From Candidatus Thorarchaeota archaeon (GTDB lineage: Archaea; Asgardarchaeota; Thorarchaeia; Thorarchaeales; Thorarchaeaceae), in assembly GCA_029855935.1 (NCBI GenBank), contig JAGSHN010000020.1, positions 88,471-152,470 on the forward strand: a stretch of DNA of 64,000 nucleotides, written 5' to 3'. Of the stretch, positions 14,776 through 27,477 are shown piece by piece. The notes under the pieces were generated by a model that saw only the letters and a list, made by a program, of their open reading frames with translations, made no database searches and was not told where the DNA came from. The number at the start of each line of letters is the position of its first letter. The stretch's first letter is position 1. Made by a program: the position numbers and the translations under genes.

Positions 14776-15222
14776 GTGCCTCGAGGAAAAAAGAGAGACG
14801 GCGGGCCAAAGAAGAGGCTCTGGATGATGCCTCAGGAGGTGGAGGTCTGGTACATCCTCCCGGCTATCAGGAGAGAACTCACCCGCATAATGATAGAGCT
14901 GGGTACGCCCCAGAAGGACATAGCCAAGATACTCGGGATAACAGAACCAGCAGTGTCGCAGTACAAGCTGAGGCGCGATGAAACATCCAGAGCGCGCGGC
15001 GACCAGATACAGATCCCTGAAGAGTTCAGGCCCTACCTTGAAGAGGCTGCCAAGAAACTGCTTGACGCGTGGAAGAACAGAGGGGAGGGTGAGTACGTCT
15101 TTGAAGAGATGACTAGGGAGTTCAACCACCTCATAGCCCTCCTCAGGAAGAAGGGCGTTATCTGTGAGGTTCATCGTGAACATGCCGAACACGTGAGCGA
15201 TGTCTGCCACGCCTGCGACTGA
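14776..15222 (+). CDS. Helix-turn-helix transcription regulator, archaeal XRE-like
   Basis: 148 residues. A helix-turn-helix of the archaeal type is clear at about residues 42-67 (GTPQKDIAKILGITEPAVSQYKLRR). It is preceded by a conserved-looking EVWYILPAIRRELTRIM segment and followed by a helical domain ending in a Cys/His-rich tail (VICEVH then VCHACD) that could bind metal or sense redox state. The GTG start is preceded by GGTGAT. The gene is divergent from the sirtuin, and the 94-base gap must hold both promoters, so coordinate control is possible. Confidence 0.82.
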   Translation: MPRGKKRDGGPKKRLWMMPQEVEVWYILPAIRRELTRIMIELGTPQKDIAKILGITEPAVSQYKLRRDETSRARGDQIQIPEEFRPYLEEAAKKLLDAWKNRGEGEYVFEEMTREFNHLIALLRKKGVICEVHREHAEHVSDVCHACD

Positions 15223-15334
15223 CTGGCGCACCAAGAGCCGAGCCGCATCCCGCAATAGTGTCCGTAGAGAATCGGTAAGGTTTTCAGGAACGAACCATCT
15301 GCCAATCGGCGAGATTCTTCGCGAGGATAGGACT

Positions 15335-16072
15335 ATGAGCGGCGAGATCAAGGTAGATAGAGAAGACGCCATCGCAGTAGTCACAATCTCCCGACCGGAC
15401 AAGCTGAACGCAGTGACCTATGAGATGCTGAGGGAGTTCGAGGACAAGGTCTCACGACTGCTCAACGACCCGGAGATATTCGTTGTCATCATAACAGGGG
15501 AGGGCGAACGCGCCTTCTGTGCGGGGTTCGACCTTGAGACAGTGAAGAATCTCCGCAAGGAGGAATACCTTGACTTCTTCAAGCTTCTCGGGAAGGTCGT
15601 CGCCGAGGTCCGCGACAACAGGAACTGTATCACAATTGCAGCCGTCAACGGCTATGCAGTGGGCTTCGGGGCCATCATATCGGCGGCCTGCGACTTCAGA
15701 TTCTTCTCGGACAATGCCGGGTTCAAACTCCCTGAGGTCGACCTGGGGATATTCCCTGGGTCGGGTGCGTCGTCCGGGCTTCTGAGACTAGTAGGGCCAT
15801 CAAAGGCGAAAGAACTACTACTGACTGGGCGAATGGTACCCGCTGATGAGGCGCGACATATCGGCATTGCAGACAAGGTCTTCAGCCAAGACGAGCTGAT
15901 GAAGGAGACACTTGAGTTTGCCCGTGAACTGGTCGGCAAGGACCGCAAGCTTGTGATCAGGACAAAGACCCTCATCGACGCGATGGTCGGTCACGAGCTG
16001 CTAGACGCAGCCGACATTGAGTCTGCATTCACAGAGGAGTGGCTGAGAGAGAAGGTCGAGGAACGCGACTGA
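15335..16072 (+). CDS. Enoyl-CoA hydratase/isomerase (crotonase)
   Basis: 245 residues, standard crotonase length. It hydrates or isomerises 2-enoyl-CoA esters. Seen: ISRPDKLNAVTYEM, the oxyanion motifs CAGFDLETV and NGYAVGFGA, then LPEVDLGIFPGSG and AKELLLTG, which carry the two glutamates needed for hydratase chemistry. The frame is open 135 bases upstream, but the ATG at 15335 has GAGGAT 5 bases before it and is where the family begins. No other beta-oxidation genes are adjacent, although a dienoyl-CoA-reductase-type enzyme is encoded at 6.3-8.2 kb. Confidence 0.9.
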   Translation: MSGEIKVDREDAIAVVTISRPDKLNAVTYEMLREFEDKVSRLLNDPEIFVVIITGEGERAFCAGFDLETVKNLRKEEYLDFFKLLGKVVAEVRDNRNCITIAAVNGYAVGFGAIISAACDFRFFSDNAGFKLPEVDLGIFPGSGASSGLLRLVGPSKAKELLLTGRMVPADEARHIGIADKVFSQDELMKETLEFARELVGKDRKLVIRTKTLIDAMVGHELLDAADIESAFTEEWLREKVEERD

Positions 16073-16217
16073 GTGGAAACTCGTCCCAAATACCAAGATA
16101 TACTGCGGCGCAACAGAGCAATTGGCGGCGTTGTGACACTGACCGTACGCCCACCAATGACCCAGGACTGTGGCGTGACCAGTCGTTTCCTGGGGAGCAA
16201 AGTCCGAGGTTGGACAC

Positions 16218-17270
16218 ATGCCAGCATTCGGAACAACCGATCCTGCCAGAGACCTCGTGCTGATGCTCGACACCGGAGTGGTGCTCTACACTCTTCTCTT
16301 TGCCGCAGTGTTTGTGGTTCAGTGGCTGAGAGCGCCACTGAGAAAGTGGACCGACCCGACACTCTCCTGGGCTATCTTCATGGCGGGAATGGCATTCAAC
16401 AGCGTGTTCTTCATTCTGTCGGACTTCTTCCTCGCCTTTCCGCCATGGCTCGAGATCACCACGCGACTTGGATACCTGTCTATGATAGTCGCGCTCATCG
16501 CGTTCTTCTTTGTCATAGAGACAATCATTCCCTACACGCGCTACCACATTGCGTCCGGGCTGGGCGTATTCTTTGCTGTACTGACCATCGTCATTCCCTT
16601 CGACCTGATGGACGCTGTCGCACTCATCGCCAGCCTGGAGACAATGCTCATCCTGTCGCTGTTCCTCCTCTACGCAATCCGCAACACGAGCGGACGAGTT
16701 AGACGAAGTATGGAGACGATAGCGGTTGGTTTCCTCATTGGCTTTCTTGGCTACATCGGGCGCAGCGAGTTTGCATACAACAGCCTCGGGCCGAGTATCT
16801 ATCTCCTCGCCGCTGTTTTTCTCGTTGCGGGGCTGCTGCTGTTGGGCGCCACCGTCCTGAGCTCACCCTCCCTTGACGAACTGAACTGGCGAGAACAGCT
16901 GCTTGAGTTGTACGTCATAGGTTCAGCAGGGCTCTTGCTCTACGACCACACATTTCAGCCCGCGACGGATATGGACAGACACCTTGCCGCGGCTGGCATC
17001 GCGGGTGTGCAGCTGCTCTTCAAGGAGATACTCAATAGCAGGGAGGGGCTCAACTCGCTGGCCGTTGGCGACACTCACGTGATGTTCGGTCACGGAGAGG
17101 GCTTCACCGTTGTGCTCATAGCTCGGAAGCCGTACCGCATCCTTGCTGACAAGATCATCCAGTTCATCCAGATGCTCGAGCTGGTCTTCAGAAGAGAGTT
17201 GACCGAGGAGACAGTCCGGCCAATCGACCCGGAAAGAGCGGGAAGAATAGTGAGTGCGGTGTTTGCATAG
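16218..17270 (+). CDS. Seven-helix membrane protein with longin-like C-terminal domain
   Basis: 350 residues. About seven hydrophobic segments lie between residues 15 and 215. A soluble domain of about 120 residues follows (from LLELYVIGSAGLLLYDHTF). Its pattern, a strand ending in GLLLYD, an acidic turn, a helix (AGIAGVQLLFKEIL), then strands GDTHVMFGHG and FTVVLIARK and a final long helix, looks like the longin/roadblock-type fold common in archaeal sensor proteins. That fold assignment is inference. GAGGTTGG precedes the ATG. No enzymatic motif is visible; a sensor or scaffold role is plausible. Confidence 0.65.
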   Translation: MPAFGTTDPARDLVLMLDTGVVLYTLLFAAVFVVQWLRAPLRKWTDPTLSWAIFMAGMAFNSVFFILSDFFLAFPPWLEITTRLGYLSMIVALIAFFFVIETIIPYTRYHIASGLGVFFAVLTIVIPFDLMDAVALIASLETMLILSLFLLYAIRNTSGRVRRSMETIAVGFLIGFLGYIGRSEFAYNSLGPSIYLLAAVFLVAGLLLLGATVLSSPSLDELNWREQLLELYVIGSAGLLLYDHTFQPATDMDRHLAAAGIAGVQLLFKEILNSREGLNSLAVGDTHVMFGHGEGFTVVLIARKPYRILADKIIQFIQMLELVFRRELTEETVRPIDPERAGRIVSAVFA

Positions 17271-17349
17271 TAGTCCTGATCAGCCACGCGATGACCGAGC
17301 CGCTAGACATTAATGTGACTTGACCCTCTCATCTAGACTGTGATTGGAG

Positions 17350-17730
17350 ATGTCACGCAGCGTCGTTGCCACGAAAAAGGCGCCCGCAGCTATTGGCCCG
17401 TACTCACAGGCCATCACTGCGGGTGGGTTCGTCTTTTGCTCTGGTCAGATTCCCATAGACCCCCAGTCTGGCAATCTTGTGACGGGGCCGATAACTGAAC
17501 AGACCCGACAGGTCCTAGAGAATCTGAGCGCAATCCTCGAGACGGCAGGGTCGTCGATGGAGAAGGTTGTCAAGGTCACGGTCTATCTTCGTGACATCAA
17601 CGACTTTGCCGAGATGAACGCGGAGTACGCAAAGTGGTTCCCCTCCGACCCACCAGCGAGGGCCGCGGTGCAGGTCGCAAGGCTCCCCAAGGATGTCGGA
17701 ATAGAGATTGAGGCCATAGCGATGCTGTAG
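17350..17730 (+). CDS. ridA: RidA family enamine/imine deaminase
   Basis: 126 residues, normal for the Rid/YjgF/UK114 family, which hydrolyses reactive 2-aminoacrylate and related imines made by PLP enzymes. Seen: [43 protein letters not shown], and [13 protein letters not shown] with the substrate-carboxylate arginine. A TTG two codons upstream (17344) is possible. A TATA-like stretch near 17310 suggests a very short leader. Confidence 0.93.
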
Positions 17731-17824
17731 ACCGCGAATTGTGCCATCAGAGGAACCTTTTTCTTGGCTTCTGCGGCCGCAGCCGCAATGGGCCTCGTGG
17801 GGTCCGAGCTTGGAGAACACCACT

Positions 17825-18445
17825 ATGCACGAACGCATCTCGCGCCGCGGAATTTCACATATTCTCGCAGAGGCGGCCACTCTCATGTCGCAGGCGAGAT
17901 ACCGCGAGGCAAGAGAGACTCTGCAGATAGGTGTTTCACTTGACCCGTCAAACAAACAGCTCTGGCGAGAGATTGTCACCTGTAGTATTGCAATGAGGAG
18001 ACCAAAGGACGCCATCTCCGCCCTCGACCAGATCGTACGGATCGACCCGAATGCGGAGGACGCGTGGACTGACAAGGCCTACCTTCACATACTCCTCGAC
18101 GAGAAAGATCGTGGCATCGAGGCCCTGGAGAGGAGTCTGAGGCTCCATCCCAGAGACCACAGGAAGTGGTATCTCCTCGCCACCATCCATATGTCCGTTG
18201 GGGACTGGCAGTCAGCCACCATTGCGCTTGAGCGCGCCCTGCAGCTCGACCCAAACTCTGCCGCTGCGTGGTACAACTACGCAGTCTGTTTCTTCTTCCA
18301 AGACGAATACGAAAATGCTCTCGCGGCAGCGGAGATGGCCTTCGCCCTCGACCCCGTCTTGGAACAGGTGGCGGACAGCTGGCTTCAGGTCATCAGGGCT
18401 GACGAAGTAGCCCACGAGTCTGATATCGTAGCGGTGGCCGGGTAG
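17825..18445 (+). CDS. TPR-repeat protein
   Basis: 206 residues made of about five tetratricopeptide repeats (for example YREARETLQIGVSLDPSNKQ, PKDAISALDQIVRIDPNAED, DWQSATIALERALQLDPNSA). TPRs form helical scaffolds for protein-protein contacts. No other domain is present, so the partner is unknown. ATG 17825 has GGAG 9 bases upstream; the open frame continues to 17741 without conserved sequence. It converges on the WD40/coiled-coil gene, next to the tubulin-like operon, and may belong functionally with it. Confidence 0.85.
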   Translation: MHERISRRGISHILAEAATLMSQARYREARETLQIGVSLDPSNKQLWREIVTCSIAMRRPKDAISALDQIVRIDPNAEDAWTDKAYLHILLDEKDRGIEALERSLRLHPRDHRKWYLLATIHMSVGDWQSATIALERALQLDPNSAAAWYNYAVCFFFQDEYENALAAAEMAFALDPVLEQVADSWLQVIRADEVAHESDIVAVAG

Positions 18446-18529
18446 GAACTCGGACGTCAGATGGGAGGCAGTCTAGTCACCAACAATGTACGGAAATAAC
18501 CCTCTCCGAGAGAATATCAGGCGGCTGCA

Positions 18530-20482
18530 CTACGAGTCTGTCCCCTCTGCGGTAGATGCCATCTCCGAGACCGATGAGTCTGCGGAGCCATTCAGACCAC
18601 GCAGGGCCTCAAGCTCGTTGCGGAGATTCCGAATCTCCTCCTTCAGCTTGAACTGCTTCGCCGTCTCAAGGGCCTGATTCAGCGCTTGAACCAATGCCTC
18701 ATATTCACGTTGTCGCTCTGTCGGGTCCTTCAGGGAGGCAATCTGATCTCGTTTACGTGGTACGAGCCGGAGAAGACCGCTGATTGCAGCAATGGCCTCA
18801 TCCCTACTCTGAAGTTCGCGCTCCTCCTCCTCGTCAGCCGCACTTACGATACGTGTGATCTGGTCGCGGAGATGCTCGTACTCTTTCAGGGCGGACGTGA
18901 GAATCTCCCGGACCTCCTTGTCTTCCGCTGATGTCTTCTCAAGCTCCCCCTTCAGCCTCTCCACCACTGACTCGAGGAACTGTCTTCGCGCGTCCAACTT
19001 CGTGCGCCTGCGCTCCATCCAGCGCCACTCGGACAGAATGTGCTTGACGAGGGCCTCTGCCTGATTTATCTTCTCCTTGTATTTCTCGGCCTTCTCCATC
19101 GCCGCCCTGAGGTCCTCCTCAAGCGTGTCCGCTATGAACGCGAGATGATAGCTCAGGATGTCCCCCGCACGTGCCTCCGCGAGGACACGGCTCTCCTTCA
19201 CGGCCCTCTTGGCCTCATCCCACAGGGCCTCCAGCTCCGAGTCCTCAAGTTCTGTGCGGCCCCTCATCTCGAACTCGTCCGAGACCTGCTCAACCCGTTT
19301 CTGGAGTTCCTGAAGCTCCGTAATCTTAGACCGAATGAGCGCTCTACCCAGCTTCCGGTTTAGCTCGCGGGTCAGCTTCTCACGTTCGTTCGGCACCTCA
19401 AGGAGAGCGTGAGTGTTGTCGATGAGCATCTGCAGCGCCAGCTCGTACTGTGCAACCGCCTCGGCAAACTGGCCCTTCTGCACGAGCTCATCGCCGCGCT
19501 TCTTCTGAACCAGCACACTCTCAAGAACGTCGTAGGGAGAGGTCTTGAGAGGGCCCTGTGCAAAGTCAACATTGATACTCGTTTCAAGGTCGTGGCCTGC
19601 TACGCCGTACAAGACCTGGCAGACGAGCAAGGATCCGCCTGTGCCCACGTAGATCTGATCGTGGTCAACATCAACAGACTCTATTCTCTCGCCACCTGTA
19701 TCCAGACGCCCAATCATCTGGCCCGTCTGCACCACCCAGATGGTGACCAGTTCCTGAGCGGATGCGGCGACCAGATAGTAGTCGTTGGCCCAGAGAGCAG
19801 CCACGGGTTGTGACACAACGTGAGGAAGCACCCGGGCGAGTGTCCAGTCCTCTCTCTGCCAGAGTTCGATGTCGCCGTTCCCGAGGCCGGCAATCACAAA
19901 TTCTTTGTTTCCAGCGAGTGCGGTACAGCGTTCCTTTGAGTTCAACTCCTTCATTCTTGAGGGGGCTGCACCATTCCTACGTTGCCAGACAACCACATTG
20001 CCCTTCTTCTTGTCAGACGTGCAGATGATAGTGTCGTCGACCCACAGCCCGGTGAGCTCGGACTTGTACAGCTGCCAGCTTGAAGTCTCGTGTGTCTCCT
20101 TGTTTATAGAGACAATGCGCCCCTCCCGAGAGCCGACCAAGAACGTGTCGTGATACATGGTCGACACAAGGGCTTGATAGCTGAGCTCAAACCAACCGAC
20201 CATCCCCCAGCTCGCCCTGCTCCAGACATAGACCCGCTTCCCGCACGTCGCGTAGACATTATCCGCGTCAACATGCACAGCAAGCGGAGGCGAACTGGTC
20301 TCTCCGAGCGTGGCCACCAGTGACCAGTCCTTCTTCGACCATACTCTGACAACGTTGTCGCGACAGGCTGCGTAGACGTGGTCCGTATCGTGTGTGATAC
20401 TGACGACATCAGCCTCAAGATCCACCATCCTCTCTATGGTGAGAGGCATGGTCCCGTCTGCACCTCCCGGAGAACTCGTCAT
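18530..20482 (-). CDS. Beta-propeller (WD40-like) plus coiled-coil protein
   Basis: 650 residues. Residues about 15-305 form six or seven degenerate WD40-type blades (VVRVWSKKDW, RVYVWSRASW, NVVVWQRR, IELWQREDW, LVTIWVVQTG). Residues about 328-375 form a TPR- or MIT-like helical hairpin (KRGDELVQKGQFAEAVAQYELAL). From about 375 to 630 the sequence is nearly all charged helix with heptad character and ends in a Ser/Thr-rich tail. No signal or membrane segment. The design is that of an intracellular scaffold. It is transcribed divergently from the coiled-coil/tubulin-like operon, with a 276-base gap carrying several palindromes, so a joint role is likely but not proven. Confidence 0.8.
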   Translation of the reverse strand: MTSSPGGADGTMPLTIERMVDLEADVVSITHDTDHVYAACRDNVVRVWSKKDWSLVATLGETSSPPLAVHVDADNVYATCGKRVYVWSRASWGMVGWFELSYQALVSTMYHDTFLVGSREGRIVSINKETHETSSWQLYKSELTGLWVDDTIICTSDKKKGNVVVWQRRNGAAPSRMKELNSKERCTALAGNKEFVIAGLGNGDIELWQREDWTLARVLPHVVSQPVAALWANDYYLVAASAQELVTIWVVQTGQMIGRLDTGGERIESVDVDHDQIYVGTGGSLLVCQVLYGVAGHDLETSINVDFAQGPLKTSPYDVLESVLVQKKRGDELVQKGQFAEAVAQYELALQMLIDNTHALLEVPNEREKLTRELNRKLGRALIRSKITELQELQKRVEQVSDEFEMRGRTELEDSELEALWDEAKRAVKESRVLAEARAGDILSYHLAFIADTLEEDLRAAMEKAEKYKEKINQAEALVKHILSEWRWMERRRTKLDARRQFLESVVERLKGELEKTSAEDKEVREILTSALKEYEHLRDQITRIVSAADEEEERELQSRDEAIAAISGLLRLVPRKRDQIASLKDPTERQREYEALVQALNQALETAKQFKLKEEIRNLRNELEALRGLNGSADSSVSEMASTAEGTDS

Positions 20483-20512
20483 GTTACCGACCTGCGGGCA
20501 GTGATTGCTGTT

Positions 20513-20596
20513 TAGAAAACGGGTCCGGTCCCGTTTAAGGCGTTTTCTAGTTGCCGAAAATACGGTGCATCATTCGAAAAACACGGGGACCGGTCC
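20513..20596. promoter_or_regulatory. Nested palindromes between the WD40 gene and the tubulin-like operon
   Basis: TAGAAAAC at 20513-20520 is inverted as GTTTTCTA at 20542-20549. Inside lies AACGGG-TCCGGT-CCCGTT (20518-20535). A perfect 10-base palindrome GGACCGGTCC follows at 20587-20596 and shares the GGTCCGG/CCGGACC theme of the first element. Placed in a divergent promoter region, these look like binding sites for one dimeric regulator serving both directions. Confidence 0.5.
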
Positions 20597-20758
20597 GGAT
20601 ATGGTGAGACAGGCTGATTCTGCCAGCCAGTGCCCCTTGTTCCTGACGGTCACGACCGGATGTGGGGACTATTTCCTCAGACTGCCCGTCAACATCCAGA
20701 ATACACTTAAGATAGGCATCATTTCCAGATTCAGCCGCACTAACAGGAGGAAGACTAT

Positions 20759-23449
20759 TTGGACTCTCGAAAGTGGCGAAGAGAGCTAGACCGTCTCTCT
20801 GAGATAAAAGGGATGCTCGTCACCATAGATCCCGCACTTGACGAACAGACTGACAGGATAATGAACCAACTCTACGACGTCTTCGCACGCCTCACGCGGG
20901 CCGAGAACGAGCTCGCAAGTGCAGGGTTTATGAAACGGAGGAAGCTTCAGTCGGTGGTCAAGAAGGCCAATAGCGACCTTGAGGAGGACTTTATGCGTGC
21001 CGTCAGAGAACTAGGGGAACTCTTCAGGAAAGAACACAGGGAGATCTCTACTCTTCTTCCCAAGCTGACAGCCCTTCGACCTATCGAGGCAAAGGCACTC
21101 TCCACAGTCGCGTTTCCGTCGATTGGTGCAGGAGACTTCTCCGACGCCGAGAGCCTGTACGACTTCGCGGGCAAGTTCACGAAGAGGTATTCGCTTCTCC
21201 ATCAGGAGATCACAAGGATGGTGAAGAACCTCCTCGACGAGAACAAGGGTATGGTAGACACCTACGAGCGTCACGTCACTATTGACAGGGGAGAGGTCTC
21301 GACCTCGGTCGCCACTGAAGATGTCACATCGCTCTCGCTTAGGGAGCTTCTCATTCTTCACGAGAAGCTGCTGAAGGAGAGAGAGTATCTCGACAGTCGA
21401 AAGGACGAGGTCAGCAGGATGCTTGCCACCTCACTGTTGTCAGAGGTAGAGGCTCTTCAGGCATCGGTGAGCACAGCCTCAAGATTCGGCCTCGACCTGC
21501 CTGTAGACTTCACCCACAAGCTGAGGCTCCTCGCGCGAGAGGCCTCGTCAGCCACCGATCTGACCACGCTGCTCACGCTTGAGGCACAGCTGCGCACAGC
21601 AGAGTCCCAGATGGCGAATATGCTCAGAGACAGAATCATCAATGTGAAGCACGAGGTCACGACAAGGATAGTGGACGGGGGGATACCGACCAGCGCGGAC
21701 ATAATTCCTCCCGCGCCAGTTCTCGAACTCGAGACGGACGACATCGCCACGCTTCTCTCTGCATACCAGAGGATGATGGAGTGGCAGGGCCAAGTGCGCA
21801 TCGCCCTCAAGGACAAGGTTGAAGAACTCCTTGAGGAACTCAACCGGGCCAGCGATGTCCCGAAGGACACTGGCATAACCGACGTGGTCGGTCTAAGGAA
21901 GTTCATCGCCGATTCGCGCGCAAAGCTCGACTCGGCCCAGATAGACGAACTGGTGCGAATCTACACCACTGCCAAGGGGATTCACGAGAAGGCTGTCAAG
22001 TTCGTCACGGACAAGATACGCGAATACATCGCCAGATTCAACGAGCTTGCCACATCTGCCGACAGGGTGCTTGACTATGCACAGTTGAGCAAGAAGGCGC
22101 CCAAGGTGGAGGAACTGCAGGGTAGCATAGTGTACCTTCTAGAGTCGTTGAACCGGCTCAGGGAGGCCGTGGACAGCGGTGTGGCTACATTCAGAGACGC
22201 GTGCCTGCAGGAGATTGACGCCATAATCCAAGACCTTCAGACTATCAAGCCTGCCTACGCAGAGATCTTTGTCCCCATAACACGGGACCTTGAAGAGGGC
22301 GCAGATAGAATCAAGACGCTCAATGACTTCGCCCAGATCAGGGGTGAGATGAGGGCCATAAAAGATGGCATCCTTGTCAAGGCCAAAGAGGCCCTTGAGA
22401 ACCTCAGATACAGGCTCGGTGTGAAGATCAGGCTCGCCGCAGCCAAGCTGATGGGAGCCGGTTTCGAGATACCAAAGGAGGCACAGGAGGCCATTGCCGA
22501 GCTCAACAGCATCGGTGTGGCTGCTGATAATGTCTTCAGCCTGCCGACTATCGCACGCAAGATGGTGGAGCTGTATGAACGCAAGATCAGCAAGACGGTC
22601 ATCGACACGCTGATTGAGAAGATCGAGGAGCTCATCAACAGCTTTGAGAAGGCCAAGGACATCGGTGTGGAGGTCGACTCGGAGCTTGAGACACTCTACG
22701 CAATTCGCGACAACCCACCGAGAGACCTCGAAGAGGCGGCAGAGGCCTTCGACAAGATCATGCAGATGACCACATCCGAGAGGCTGCATGAGAAGATCAA
22801 GGAACGGGCGAATCAGGCGTATGTGCAGATAGGAGGTGCCCTGTCAATCTTTGAGAGGCTCGGGATGTCTGAGTTTGTCGGGCGACTCAAGACGCTTCTT
22901 GAGGAGGTGCCCCAGCAGCTTGAGCATCAGAGCAAACACATCAACGAGGCTCTTGAGGTGTGCCTCACTCTCGCAAGTGTACAGAATGAGATGCTCACTG
23001 TGATCAAGGGTGTTGCCGAGAAAGAGAGCCAGCGCTTCGAACAGAGGCTGAGAAACGCAAGCAATTACTACTCGACCATAGAGAGAGTCATCGAGAAATA
23101 TCCAAAGGACTTCTCACGCCTCGTCTTCCCGGTTGAGCGTATCCAGCAGCTCGAGCAGCAGATGAGGGAGACAACCGACCTTGAGGAGGCACTCCAGGTC
23201 TTCGAGATGCTCCAAGAGCTCAGAGAGGAGTGGTTGCACCAGGTCGAGAAGATGGACGACTGGCACAAGAGCCTGAGAATGTATATGACAGGATTTAGTC
23301 CGACAATGAGTGCAGACGCTCGCGAGAAGTTCATTGAGGAACAGGTCAAGAAGATACGAGAGACCTTCAGTAGAGAGGACATCAGTTCCTATCTGTCGTG
23401 GGCACTCAGAGAGATTGCAGAGACAATGACCAGGGCAAGGGAACAATGA
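20759..23449 (+). CDS. Long coiled-coil protein of the tubulin-like operon
   Basis: 896 residues, no homolog recognised by eye. The TTG start has a perfect AGGAGG 8 bases upstream. Nearly the whole chain is charged alpha-helix rich in Glu, Lys, Leu and Arg, with long heptad stretches broken by short Pro/Gly linkers (near PSIGAGDFSD, DGGIPTSADIIPPAP, ASDVPKDTGI). There are no transmembrane segments and no nucleotide-binding motifs. Parts recall spectrin-like or SMC-like rods without heads. It ends 14 bases before the tubulin-like gene in the same operon, suggesting a filament-associated or spacer protein for that GTPase. Confidence 0.8.
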   Translation: MDSRKWRRELDRLSEIKGMLVTIDPALDEQTDRIMNQLYDVFARLTRAENELASAGFMKRRKLQSVVKKANSDLEEDFMRAVRELGELFRKEHREISTLLPKLTALRPIEAKALSTVAFPSIGAGDFSDAESLYDFAGKFTKRYSLLHQEITRMVKNLLDENKGMVDTYERHVTIDRGEVSTSVATEDVTSLSLRELLILHEKLLKEREYLDSRKDEVSRMLATSLLSEVEALQASVSTASRFGLDLPVDFTHKLRLLAREASSATDLTTLLTLEAQLRTAESQMANMLRDRIINVKHEVTTRIVDGGIPTSADIIPPAPVLELETDDIATLLSAYQRMMEWQGQVRIALKDKVEELLEELNRASDVPKDTGITDVVGLRKFIADSRAKLDSAQIDELVRIYTTAKGIHEKAVKFVTDKIREYIARFNELATSADRVLDYAQLSKKAPKVEELQGSIVYLLESLNRLREAVDSGVATFRDACLQEIDAIIQDLQTIKPAYAEIFVPITRDLEEGADRIKTLNDFAQIRGEMRAIKDGILVKAKEALENLRYRLGVKIRLAAAKLMGAGFEIPKEAQEAIAELNSIGVAADNVFSLPTIARKMVELYERKISKTVIDTLIEKIEELINSFEKAKDIGVEVDSELETLYAIRDNPPRDLEEAAEAFDKIMQMTTSERLHEKIKERANQAYVQIGGALSIFERLGMSEFVGRLKTLLEEVPQQLEHQSKHINEALEVCLTLASVQNEMLTVIKGVAEKESQRFEQRLRNASNYYSTIERVIEKYPKDFSRLVFPVERIQQLEQQMRETTDLEEALQVFEMLQELREEWLHQVEKMDDWHKSLRMYMTGFSPTMSADAREKFIEEQVKKIRETFSREDISSYLSWALREIAETMTRAREQ

Positions 23450-23463
23450 GGTAGGTGACAGGA

Positions 23464-24840
23464 ATGCAAAGGAGAAGCGGTGAGGAAGACACCACCAAGG
23501 CAGCCGAGGTCTTTGCCATCGGCATCGGAGAGTGCGGTTCGAACATTGTGGGATCGTACCTAAAGGCCAGCCGCGACAGGAGGCTGCCACAGCGTGTGCG
23601 CGGCTACCTGTTGATGAACACTGACAGAGCAGACCTGACGAAGGTCCGCGAGAAATACGGCATTCCGAAGGAGCACACGATGCTATACGGTGCCAGCGAG
23701 ATCGGTGTCGGTGGCCGCTTTATGGACGGCTACAATGCCGTGATGGAGTCAAAGGACATCATCTTTGACCAGCTGAGCAACTTGGGTTTCGAAGGCGTCT
23801 CGGGCTTCTGTATCTTCACCAGCCTCGGTGGAGGCACCGGGTGCGGCGGCACTCCTGCCCTGATAGAGCTTCTCAAGCAGCGCTTTCAGGAGGAGGAGGG
23901 AAGACGTATCTTTGTGTACGTCATCGGCGTGTTGCCCTTCGAGGGACAGTCCTCTGAGGCGCTCAACTCCATCTGGGCCGTGTCGAAGCTGCTGAGGCTG
24001 CAGCTCCAGGAACGTGGAGCAGACCTGACGATCCTGCTGAGCAACAGAACGATGCTCAGAAGAATCCTACAATCCCGTACGGCCGACAGTGTTGACTACC
24101 TTCAGAGGGAGCTCAATATTGACATCGCGGACATATCCCAGATAGAGAAGATGGTACCCTCGACCCTTGACTCTGCGGGCGAGCTTGAGCAGAGGACAGA
24201 GCAGGCTTTTGTCGAGCTCGTCAACCCGCTCGCGTTGGATGTCGTCGAGGCGATGCTCTCGCCGGGTGTCCACGAGCCCAACAAAGACGTCTTCCCGACG
24301 ACCGACCTGGCTGACTATGCACGCAAGCTCGATCCTGTTGTGGTCCCCGCACTCTATACCGATGTCGGTCTGATTCCGGACGCGGGCAGCATGCCACAGC
24401 AGCTGAAAGCGATGATAGACTACGCTGTCAAGGAGTGCTCCTATGCCGATGTTGGTGACCAGCCCAACGCGGAGAGCGTCTACTACGTCTTCAGCGGCCC
24501 AAGACACATCTCAAAGGCCGAGTTTGGGATGCACCTCAAGGAGGCCCTTGACAAGTTCATTGCACCAGGTGCTGCCATCACACCGTGCTACGTTCAATAC
24601 GAGAACCCCGATGCACCAGTGAATCTGCTCCTATTGCTTGGTCTGCCCAAGATACCAGAGCTTATTCAGCTGATCAATGAGGCCACCCAGCTCGTCAACC
24701 TTCACAGTGGTCCTTCGCCACTGAAACAGAGCTGGTTTATGCGCTCAAAGGGCGTGCCCAGGAAGGAGCTTGTGAACGCCATCAATGACTTCAGGGAACT
24801 GTTCAGCTACTACATGGATGCAGGCACTCCAGTTCAGTGA
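23464..24840 (+). CDS. Tubulin/FtsZ-superfamily GTPase, non-canonical
   Basis: 458 residues. The N-terminal GTPase domain follows FtsZ step by step: FAIGIGECGSNIV (T1), YLLMNTDRADL (T2), GASEIGVGGRFMDGYN (T3), the tubulin signature GGGTGCGG at about residues 122-129 (T4), and LLSNRTMLRR, equivalent to the FtsZ P-N-D-R motif. The T7 synergy loop that activates GTP hydrolysis in the neighbouring subunit is probably TTDLADY near 279-285: the two aspartates of N-x-D-x-x-D are kept but the Asn is Thr. The C-terminal half is divergent and there is no FtsZ-like C-terminal peptide. It probably polymerises. The ATG is preceded by AGGTGA; a GTG three codons upstream is an alternative. It lies between two helical-protein genes. 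Confidence 0.88.
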   Translation: MQRRSGEEDTTKAAEVFAIGIGECGSNIVGSYLKASRDRRLPQRVRGYLLMNTDRADLTKVREKYGIPKEHTMLYGASEIGVGGRFMDGYNAVMESKDIIFDQLSNLGFEGVSGFCIFTSLGGGTGCGGTPALIELLKQRFQEEEGRRIFVYVIGVLPFEGQSSEALNSIWAVSKLLRLQLQERGADLTILLSNRTMLRRILQSRTADSVDYLQRELNIDIADISQIEKMVPSTLDSAGELEQRTEQAFVELVNPLALDVVEAMLSPGVHEPNKDVFPTTDLADYARKLDPVVVPALYTDVGLIPDAGSMPQQLKAMIDYAVKECSYADVGDQPNAESVYYVFSGPRHISKAEFGMHLKEALDKFIAPGAAITPCYVQYENPDAPVNLLLLLGLPKIPELIQLINEATQLVNLHSGPSPLKQSWFMRSKGVPRKELVNAINDFRELFSYYMDAGTPVQ

Positions 24841-24854
24841 GCGGAGGGAACGCC

Positions 24855-25931
24855 GTGAGTGAAGAGTTCAAGATTGAGGACTTGATGGACAGGCTGCTCC
24901 TGATCGAGACCCTGAATGCAACACTCATTCACTTCCTGCTGAGCTCCCAGCTGGCGGGCGAGATCGATCCTGACAGAGTCGACTCGCTGACACAGGGTAT
25001 CAAGAGGACACGACGATGGCTTGATGAGATAGTGTCCAATGAGAGCATCCCGTCATCAACGGCAAACATCCTCAGCCTCATAGTGAAAAGACTCGCCCAG
25101 CTTGAGAGCCTCCTCCCGAAGCTCTCTCAGAGGGCGATGGAGGCTGAGAAGAAGAGCGCCGCACAAGAGATACTATCCCTACTTGAGGGAGGACCGAGCG
25201 CGACGCCAGCACAGGTCCGGCCACAGGACGCTGCTGCACCTGGTGGCCAACGCGGTGGGCCCTCACTGGTCCCTCTCGTCGAGGCCTCCGAGGAAGTGGA
25301 GGAGAAGGAGCCGTATCGAAAGGTAGACATTGAGGACGATGAGTGGGGCCTCATCTCTCAGACTCAGCGTATGATTCAGCAGTACTCCAGACGCTGTCAC
25401 GTGCTTCTGCCCACATTCTGGTTTGAGGTAATCAGAGAGCTCCACAAGTACCAGTCGGACTCGCCGTACATAGCAGACGCCATTCAGATACCGAGCGACT
25501 TTCTGATCAAGATTGTGAAGGGCCTTCTCACAGAGGCGCCCGGGGCGCGACTGCTCCAGGATCTGATGAACCAGCGGCCGCAGGAGAGCAGCCTGTCACC
25601 TAGTGAGGCCGAGCGGATCGAACGGGCCGTCGCGAAGTACTTTGCGGGTCTTGAGGACCTGCTACGCGGTGACACCCCCAAGGTCGACGAGAAGGTCGCG
25701 GAGGCGCAGATGGCCTTCGATGGCTTCGGCTGGGGCGGTCCAGAGCTAGAGAAGCGAATCATAAAGAGAATCAATCAGAGATGTCAAGAGGCGTTGCAGA
25801 ACGCAGAGGAGGACTCTGACCCGCATAGGCGTGTCATCTACGCAGAGGTGACCAAGCTCCTGTGCAAACTCCAACACGCGACGCTTGCGGAGCCGAGGCT
25901 GAGAGAGATCCTTGCCCAGATGAAGCCATAG
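24855..25931 (+). CDS. Helical protein, third gene of the tubulin-like operon
   Basis: 358 residues, function unknown. The preferred start is GTG 24855, with GGAGG 7 bases upstream; an in-frame GTG at 24837 overlaps the stop of the tubulin-like gene. Two helical regions (about 1-115 and 160-355) are joined by a Pro/Gly/Gln-rich linker (around PSATPAQVRPQD). The second region contains a conserved-looking YSRRCHVLLPTFWFEVIRE segment. No membrane segment or enzyme motif. Its tight linkage suggests an adaptor or regulator of the polymer. Confidence 0.75.
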   Translation: MSEEFKIEDLMDRLLLIETLNATLIHFLLSSQLAGEIDPDRVDSLTQGIKRTRRWLDEIVSNESIPSSTANILSLIVKRLAQLESLLPKLSQRAMEAEKKSAAQEILSLLEGGPSATPAQVRPQDAAAPGGQRGGPSLVPLVEASEEVEEKEPYRKVDIEDDEWGLISQTQRMIQQYSRRCHVLLPTFWFEVIRELHKYQSDSPYIADAIQIPSDFLIKIVKGLLTEAPGARLLQDLMNQRPQESSLSPSEAERIERAVAKYFAGLEDLLRGDTPKVDEKVAEAQMAFDGFGWGGPELEKRIIKRINQRCQEALQNAEEDSDPHRRVIYAEVTKLLCKLQHATLAEPRLREILAQMKP

Positions 25932-26046: not shown

Positions 26047-27477
26047 GTGAGCAATCTGGACAAGATGTTCAACCCAAGAACGGCAGCAGTGGTCGGTGTG
26101 TCGACATCGAACCCGTTCTCACCCGGAAACGTCATCTTCCGAAAGCTACGTTTTGAGAATGGTATCCCGACTTATCCCATCAACCCAAAGGGAGGCACTG
26201 TGGAAGGACAGAAGGTCTACAAGTCAATATCAGAGGCCCCTGACGGCATCGACCTTGCTGTCATCTCTGTTCCTGCGAGATACGTTCCAGATGTATTGGA
26301 GGAGTGCGGCGAGAAGGGTATCAAGGCCGTCATCGTGGTCTCGGGCGGATTCAGTGAGACGGGAAAGACTGGGGCCACGCTACAAGAGGAAATAGTCGAG
26401 ATTGCCAACAAGCACGGGATTACTATGGTCGGGCCGAACTGCATCGGTGTGTATGTGCCCGACACGGTCGACACGTTCTTTCTTCCGTCGGAGCGCGTCG
26501 CTCGGCCAAGGCGCGGCCACGTTGCCATCATCTCTCAGAGCGGAGGCTGGCTCGTGGAGCGGCTTGAGGAGTTTGCTGATAGAGGTGTCGGCATCGCGGC
26601 TGCAGTCTCGATAGGCAATCAGGCTCAGACTAAGATCCACGACTTCGTCAGATACTTCGGTCGACGCAAGGACATCCGTGCAATCCTTGCCTACATAGAG
26701 GGATTCGGCGAGGGCGAGGGTAGAGAGTTCGTCAGGGCCTGCGATGAGATCACGCCGAAGATGCCTGTCGTCGTGTTCAAGGGAGGCCAGTCAGAGGCCG
26801 GACACAGGGCAACGCAGAGTCACACATCGTCTCTCGCAGGAAACGGTGCTGTCGCATCTGCGGCCTTTAGGCAGCACGGCGTGATTGAGGCAACAGACGA
26901 GGACGAGGTGATGGCGTACTCCAAGGTCTTCTCCTTCGAGTTCAGGCCGATGCTCGGTCCCAACATCGGATGCCTGACAGTCAGTGGTGGTCACGGCGTC
27001 ATTGCAACAGACGAGGCAGACCACTATGGTCTCAAGATGCCTCCGTTCAACGAGGAGGACCAAGAGGCTATGCGCGCCGTTATGACACCAGCATACCAGG
27101 GAATTGCCTCGTTCAGGAATCCGTGCGACCTGACGGGTAGTGCCTCGGATGTCGACTATGAAAGGGTCCTCGACGTCATGCTCAAGATTCACTACATTGA
27201 CGCTGCACTACTCCTACTGCTACCGTACGCACCGGGAATCTCACTCCAGATTGGCGCGCGGGTGGCCAATGTCGCGAAGCAGTACAACAAGGCCGTGGTC
27301 GCGTACGTACCGGACCTTGAGAAATACGAGGTCATCATCCGCGGGTTCGAGATCAATGGCATCCCGGTGGGCGACACCATCGAGGAGGCGGTCCAGATGC
27401 TCAACGGCATCTGGATGAGATCCCAGTATCTGATGCGAATAGGCGTCCTCAAGAAGAAGAGATCGAGCCCGACATAG
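26047..27477 (+). CDS. ADP-forming acyl-CoA synthetase, alpha-subunit type
   Basis: 476 residues, the length of an alpha subunit (CoA-binding plus two CoA-ligase domains). The family makes ATP from acetyl-CoA or another acyl-CoA, ADP and phosphate. Seen: a CoA-binding Rossmann start (AAVVGVSTSN, YPINPKGGTVEGQKVYKSI), VSGGFSETG, GPNCIGVY, ISQSGGWLVE, and SHTSSLAGN, which carries the phosphohistidine-type His. The ATP-grasp beta subunit is not fused and not next to it, so the partner must be elsewhere or this is a stand-alone relative. GTG start with a purine-rich stretch upstream. Confidence 0.85.
   Translation: MSNLDKMFNPRTAAVVGVSTSNPFSPGNVIFRKLRFENGIPTYPINPKGGTVEGQKVYKSISEAPDGIDLAVISVPARYVPDVLEECGEKGIKAVIVVSGGFSETGKTGATLQEEIVEIANKHGITMVGPNCIGVYVPDTVDTFFLPSERVARPRRGHVAIISQSGGWLVERLEEFADRGVGIAAAVSIGNQAQTKIHDFVRYFGRRKDIRAILAYIEGFGEGEGREFVRACDEITPKMPVVVFKGGQSEAGHRATQSHTSSLAGNGAVASAAFRQHGVIEATDEDEVMAYSKVFSFEFRPMLGPNIGCLTVSGGHGVIATDEADHYGLKMPPFNEEDQEAMRAVMTPAYQGIASFRNPCDLTGSASDVDYERVLDVMLKIHYIDAALLLLLPYAPGISLQIGARVANVAKQYNKAVVAYVPDLEKYEVIIRGFEINGIPVGDTIEEAVQMLNGIWMRSQYLMRIGVLKKKRSSPT

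Follow-up and report, generated by a model that had tools for sequence, protein, structure and literature searches.

The window, the 64,000-nucleotide stretch of Thorarchaeota DNA that was analyzed, carries at positions 20759-25931 a three-gene cassette whose middle gene encodes a tubulin/FtsZ-superfamily GTPase, here called TubL. TubL forms a clade of its own with the nucleotide-binding motifs kept, and it is flanked in the same order by the same two partner genes, CC and H, in seven families of Asgard archaea. On the basis of these features, we propose that the cassette is probably a dedicated cytoskeletal module, in which a polymerizing TubL would work with CC and H beside the division machinery.

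Organization of the CC-TubL-H cassette

The cassette genes are arranged head to tail on the plus strand. They and their surroundings are as follows.

17741..18445, plus strand: TPR protein, 234 aa, a neighbor in Thorarchaea only
18530..20482, minus strand: WD40 beta-propeller and coiled-coil protein, 650 aa, Pfam beta-propeller matches, divergent from the cassette
20537..20551, minus strand: putative promoter element AAGGCGTTTTCTAGT, WD40-gene side, kept in some Thorarchaea
20697..20712, plus strand: promoter-like element CAGAAYACACTTAAGA upstream of CC, from an alignment of 10 intergenic regions
20759-23449, plus strand: CC, first cassette gene, 896 aa, TTG start, all-helical and soluble, putative rod/scaffold
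23455-24840, plus strand: TubL, tubulin/FtsZ-superfamily GTPase, 461 aa from GTG 23455 or 458 aa from ATG 23464
24298..24315, plus strand: predicted T7 catalytic loop of TubL, residues 282-287, TTDLAD
24837-25931, plus strand: H, helical protein, 364 aa, or 358 aa from GTG 24855
26047-27477: acetate-CoA ligase alpha-type gene (also at L037:2023-3432 and L038:11441-12859 in other loci)

CC stops 5 nt short of the earliest start codon available to TubL, and in their longest forms the TubL and H frames share 4 nt. A reading of the DNA made beforehand from its sequence alone (the sequence-only reading) had described a GTPase tightly spaced between proteins of 896 and 358 residues, and these open reading frames were found where it had put them. 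The CC start is kept as TTG or ATG in relatives, behind a GGAGG-type ribosome-binding site in the ortholog alignment. For TubL, the ATG is a likelier start than the GTG because most orthologs begin with "MQ", and for H the ortholog alignments favor GTG 24855, which sits behind GGAGGG. No transmembrane segment was predicted in any of the three proteins.

TubL is a superfamily member distinct from FtsZ

TubL scored 70 bits against the superfamily profile PF00091, for which the cut-off is 33 (E 4e-19), whereas its scores against the FtsZ equivalog TIGR00065 (33 bits, cut-off 295) and against Tubulin_2, PF13809 (17.9 bits, cut-off 27), fell below the respective thresholds. Two further PF00091 proteins are encoded on other contigs of the source genome and score as FtsZ equivalogs at 420 and 408 bits; SepF is encoded on another contig as well. 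The division set thus lies elsewhere, so that TubL, judged by sequence, is a third and different PF00091 member in a genome that already holds the canonical archaeal division set.

A maximum-likelihood tree of 47 sequences was calculated, with CetZ sampled from Haloarchaea only and with TubZ, PhuZ, artubulins, and eukaryotic tubulins left out. TubL formed its own clade (support 100/100), separate from FtsZ (100/100), CetZ (99/97), and the Asgard tubulins (100/100), and a haloarchaeal plasmid paralog resembling Halo.Tub was its sister at 84/86. When these long-branched haloarchaeal paralogs were removed in a second tree, the separation of TubL was unchanged and its clade became sister to the Asgard tubulins at 99/96, a position at which long branches meet. 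The identity of the window TubL to any reference was 17-22%. The equivalog score, the presence of the genome's own FtsZ1 and FtsZ2 elsewhere, and the separate clade rule out ordinary FtsZ as the identity of TubL; the proposal that this GTPase is distinct from division FtsZ was upheld by score and tree alike. Between two genomes TubL was 90.8% identical, compared with 83.8% for FtsZ1 and 86.2% for FtsZ2 of the same pair; being conserved better than either FtsZ, TubL is therefore under strong constraint. The AlphaFold model of TubL was built from a shallow alignment and had a mean pLDDT of 44, which leaves only the N-terminal GTPase part usable. Foldseek searches with that part of the low-confidence model returned tubulin-superfamily chains with CetZ1 (4b46) first, adding little beyond the sequence comparisons.

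Conserved motifs and the C-terminus of TubL

The T1 loop of TubL reads GIGECGSN and the T4 loop GGGTGCGG. The T1 (G-x-G-E-C/A-G) and T4 (GGGTGCG) signatures and the H7 asparagine, N257, were kept in all 17 aligned TubL orthologs; together with the PF00091 score, this invariance confirmed the earlier identification of an FtsZ-superfamily GTPase with T1 and T4. After H7, the segment TTDLAD provides two aspartates, D284 and D287, that never vary in TubL and that align with D209 and D212 of Escherichia coli FtsZ. A local hhalign profile alignment to FtsZ instead placed T7 at NIDIADI (residues 221-226), but this segment precedes H7 and is unconserved, with, for example, K or N replacing the second aspartate in orthologs. 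When TubL is aligned jointly with CetZ and the haloarchaeal paralog, the T7 aspartates fall at 284-287.

In polymers of the tubulin superfamily, the T7 residues of one subunit supply the missing part of its neighbor's active site. Since T1, T4, and the T7 aspartates are all kept, polymerization-coupled GTP hydrolysis by TubL is likely. TubL also has an insertion of about 45 residues separating S6 from H7, and the segment leading to T7 is lengthened; such additions could change or prevent the usual longitudinal contact. The C-terminal linker and anchor peptide that mark FtsZ are missing. The TubL C-terminus is a hairpin of helices, WFMRSKG...ELVNAINDFRELF, whose counterpart in alignments is H11/H12 of the Asgard tubulins.

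The partner proteins CC and H

Neither CC nor H matched a Pfam or NCBIfam family above cut-off, and searches of the PDB gave no significant solved relative for either; the CC matches there look like chance coiled-coil similarity. The composition of CC (5.8% Pro+Gly) is all-helical in character. The description of the 896-residue protein as a coiled-coil protein therefore stands for its helical nature, while a continuous coiled coil stays putative. Of the 19 residues of CC that are invariant across families, ten fall within the C-terminal 112 (p about 2e-5). In the ortholog alignment, H consists of an N-terminal helical part, a variable linker, and a conserved C-terminal helical domain; its invariant residues are confined to positions 168-363, and the N-terminal part varies. 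The AlphaFold model of H, also from a shallow alignment, was all-helical with low confidence (pLDDT 53). These patterns suggest that the conserved C-terminal regions of CC and H are likely interaction domains. The cassette proteins had no PADLOC match worth counting, and a defense system was rejected.

Conservation of the cassette in Asgard archaea

A survey of 227 Asgard species genomes in 28 families found TubL in 70 genomes, CC in 71, and H in 68, and all carriers, bar one CC match, belonged to the same seven families. TubL was present in 31% of the species genomes searched and was nearly universal in Thorarchaea. The lone CC match beyond the carrier families (27 bits, in genome G211, which has no TubL) is best read as chance coiled-coil similarity. 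Most of the genomes in carrier families from which one gene or the whole set is missing are fragmented or incomplete. Drawn independently, two sets of 7 of 28 families would coincide with a probability of 1 in 1.2 million, a figure that treats families as units and, given their relatedness, serves as a guide only.

All seven carrier families have loci in which CC, TubL, and H follow one another in this order, mostly with overlaps or with gaps of less than about 40 nt. The order persists in families f6 and f12, where identity is down to 44% in TubL, 21-23% in CC, and 24-28% in H. The flanks consist of unrelated housekeeping genes that mostly differ from family to family. The linkage of neighbors in relatives, on which the sequence-only reading had staked its proposal, was thus found for CC and H; of the co-occurring set that it had envisaged, these two and TubL are conserved and the beta-propeller and TPR genes are not, leaving three genes rather than five. 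In genomes G095 (L087), G098 (L088), and G013 (L034), the cassette is interrupted by insertions of 4-10 kb, and a strict operon structure is therefore not always needed. Between CC and TubL, the insertion in G095 is a single gene of 1202 aa (L087:10358-13963) and that in G098 measures about 10 kb (contig C230, about 14900-24700).

In a tree of RpoB, presence and absence of the cassette were patchy across families, with six changes, a pattern that fits ancient presence with losses or transfer. Beyond Asgard archaea, one contig scan with the window TubL, which reaches close relatives only, returned Thorarchaeal loci plus one other archaeal locus, and a plasmid search with TubL returned only a distant haloarchaeal relative. 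A phage or virus origin of TubL was rejected, as no relative was present in viral_contigs and the PHROG match was weak (E 0.015).

Several related loci were noted in the survey. Three f20 genomes contain a second cassette, CC2-TubL2, that lacks H (L081:8423-13180, L084:3043-7821, and L089:9106-13890) and has its own upstream gene of about 311 aa; that this gene is a diverged H was ruled out. The acetate-CoA ligase alpha-type gene lies directly 3' of the cassette in Thorarchaea and in family f13, at about 35% identity. Tandem eukaryote-like tubulins resembling AtubA/AtubB are encoded in the f15 genome G089 (L098:1098-3678), which has no TubL cassette.

Upstream gap and non-core neighbors

The divergent beta-propeller/coiled-coil gene and the adjoining TPR gene pointed out beforehand are both real, as judged by Pfam matches. 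They were found only in the Thorarchaeal family f1 and are missing from some f1 loci. The palindromes that had been claimed for the intergenic gap (20483-20758) are also present, with a near-perfect palindrome AAACGGGTCC/GGTCCCGTTT at 20517-20536 and a second GGGACCGGTCC copy at 20586-20596, but they are unconserved in orthologs, which rules them out as a regulatory signature. Because the two neighbors are restricted to Thorarchaea and the palindromes to the source genome, neither belongs to the core cassette. What relatives do share in the gap is CAGAAYACACTTAAGA before CC and, in some genomes, AAGGCGTTTTCTAGT toward the WD40 gene; both look like promoter elements. No division genes were found in the immediate neighborhood, as had been observed before.

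A proposed cytoskeletal module and its alternatives

In the proposed module, TubL would bind GTP and assemble head to tail into protofilaments, and the GTP would be hydrolyzed once a subunit brings its T7 aspartates up to the nucleotide bound by the adjacent one. The H11/H12-like hairpin would face outward and offer a docking surface for partners. CC would be elongated; it would most likely bind TubL through the conserved domain at its C-terminus (about residues 785-896), while the remainder would space, bundle, or tether the filaments. H would act as an adaptor or regulator through its conserved C-terminal domain. We infer that such filaments would operate beside, rather than within, the FtsZ1/FtsZ2/SepF machinery and could contribute to cell shape, motility, or intracellular organization. 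The module may well represent an undescribed class of Asgard filament, a further archaeal tubulin-superfamily branch invariably accompanied by a rod protein and an adaptor of its own.

TubL and its partners might instead be a lineage-specific auxiliary part of the Asgard division ring, acting with FtsZ1, FtsZ2, SepF, or ESCRT-III. TubL shares the FtsZ superfamily, and FtsZ is also present in nearly every carrier genome. A division role is nonetheless disfavored because the division set is encoded elsewhere, with no linked division gene in any carrier family, because TubL lacks the C-terminal tail with which FtsZ recruits SepF or FtsA, and because three quarters of the Asgard families (21 of 28) have no cassette; we consider it unlikely. 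A slightly poorer prospect is that TubL is a non-polymerizing switch governing the assembly of CC, which would itself be the filament or scaffold. The S6-H7 insertion and extended T7 approach of TubL would suit such a switch, as would a large, helical CC that always comes first in the operon, but the T7 aspartates, which act across the subunit contact, have stayed invariant despite divergence to about 40% identity.

Plasmid TubZ systems combine a GTPase and an adaptor in an operon, and a tubulin-superfamily GTPase with an adaptor gene beside it recalls this layout. In a segregation system of the TubZRC kind, TubL would push or drag DNA or a replicon bound by CC or H. The cassette, however, is chromosomal and usually single-copy, one-contig genomes included; CC and H match no DNA-binding family in Pfam or NCBIfam; neither the gap nor the ortholog alignment revealed conserved iterons beside the cassette; and relatives were absent from viral_contigs and limited on plasmids to the distant haloarchaeal one. 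Segregation is accordingly very improbable. An explanation that is compatible with the module is that the TubL family equals the uncharacterized Asg.Tub of PMC9871819, in which case only the partners and the census would be new. That paper describes CetZ-like paralogs in Asgard genomes that have coiled-coil genes near them, which favors the identity, and it describes them as scarce and confined to Heimdallarchaeia and Lokiarchaeia, which does not match a TubL that is near-universal in Thorarchaea and present in 31% of Asgard species. We regard this identity as doubtful, though it is the least improbable of the alternatives.

Comparison with known systems

A description of the CC-TubL-H cassette was not found in the open-access literature, and the module of three genes, both partner proteins, and their distribution seem to be new. 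Part of the TubL family may overlap with Asg.Tub, which Santana-Molina et al. 2023 (PMC9871819) report as scarce CetZ-like paralogs of Heimdallarchaeia and Lokiarchaeia that lie close to coiled-coil genes.

FtsZ1 and FtsZ2 of Asgard archaea share with TubL the GTPase domain, the T1, T4, and T7 elements, and a presumed head-to-tail polymer, but TubL is only about 20% identical to FtsZ and has CC and H, not division genes, as its linked neighbors. FtsZl1/Tubulin_2 resembles TubL as a non-division superfamily member with conserved multigene neighborhoods; in FtsZl1 the T6-H7 elements are not recognizable, and genes for vWA and membrane proteins are linked to it (PMC2875224), whereas no vWA match occurred among the scanned TubL neighbors.

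The closest relative found outside Asgard archaea is the haloarchaeal plasmid paralog (profile match 99.1, E 1.5e-18), which is probably the Halo.Tub of PMC9871819. Like TubL, it clusters with large helical proteins; it differs in having 22% identity, an upstream neighbor that is membrane-anchored and shows no homology to CC, and a cluster with three tubulin-like paralogs. The cluster, about 15-20 kb on haloarchaeal plasmids (L115, L116, and L113), combines three divergent tubulin-like paralogs, the third of which is this closest relative, with large hypothetical proteins, one of them membrane-anchored and helical in Natrinema. In Halobacterium salinarum (L115; pHS2, NC_010369.1, about 169855-189846), it is adjoined by a beta-propeller protein and an ATP-binding protein.

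CetZ, the haloarchaeal tubulin homologs of cell shape and motility, offers an obvious precedent for a role outside division; it gave the top structural match (4b46, CetZ1) and a full-length profile match of 98.6 (E 6e-16). TubL is set apart from CetZ by 19% identity, a separate clade, the insertion of about 45 aa, and the tubulin-like C-terminal hairpin, and we know of no dedicated CC and H partners of CetZ.

Asgard archaea are the closest known relatives of eukaryotes, and work on their cytoskeleton has so far dealt mostly with actin, ESCRT, and eukaryote-like tubulins. OdinTubulin and AtubA/AtubB are, like TubL, Asgard members of the tubulin superfamily with a similar H11/H12 hairpin; they differ from it in their 17-18% identity, their separate clades, and their lack of CC and H partners. 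Eukaryote-like tubulins occur in about 1% of Asgard genomes (PMC13394414), and the TubL module is far more widespread. CC and H are two named partners that can be tested together with TubL, and all three proteins are soluble and open to reconstitution. If TubL filaments prove true, the superfamily that includes CetZ and the Asgard tubulins would gain a branch whose dedicated accessory proteins arose outside eukaryotes.
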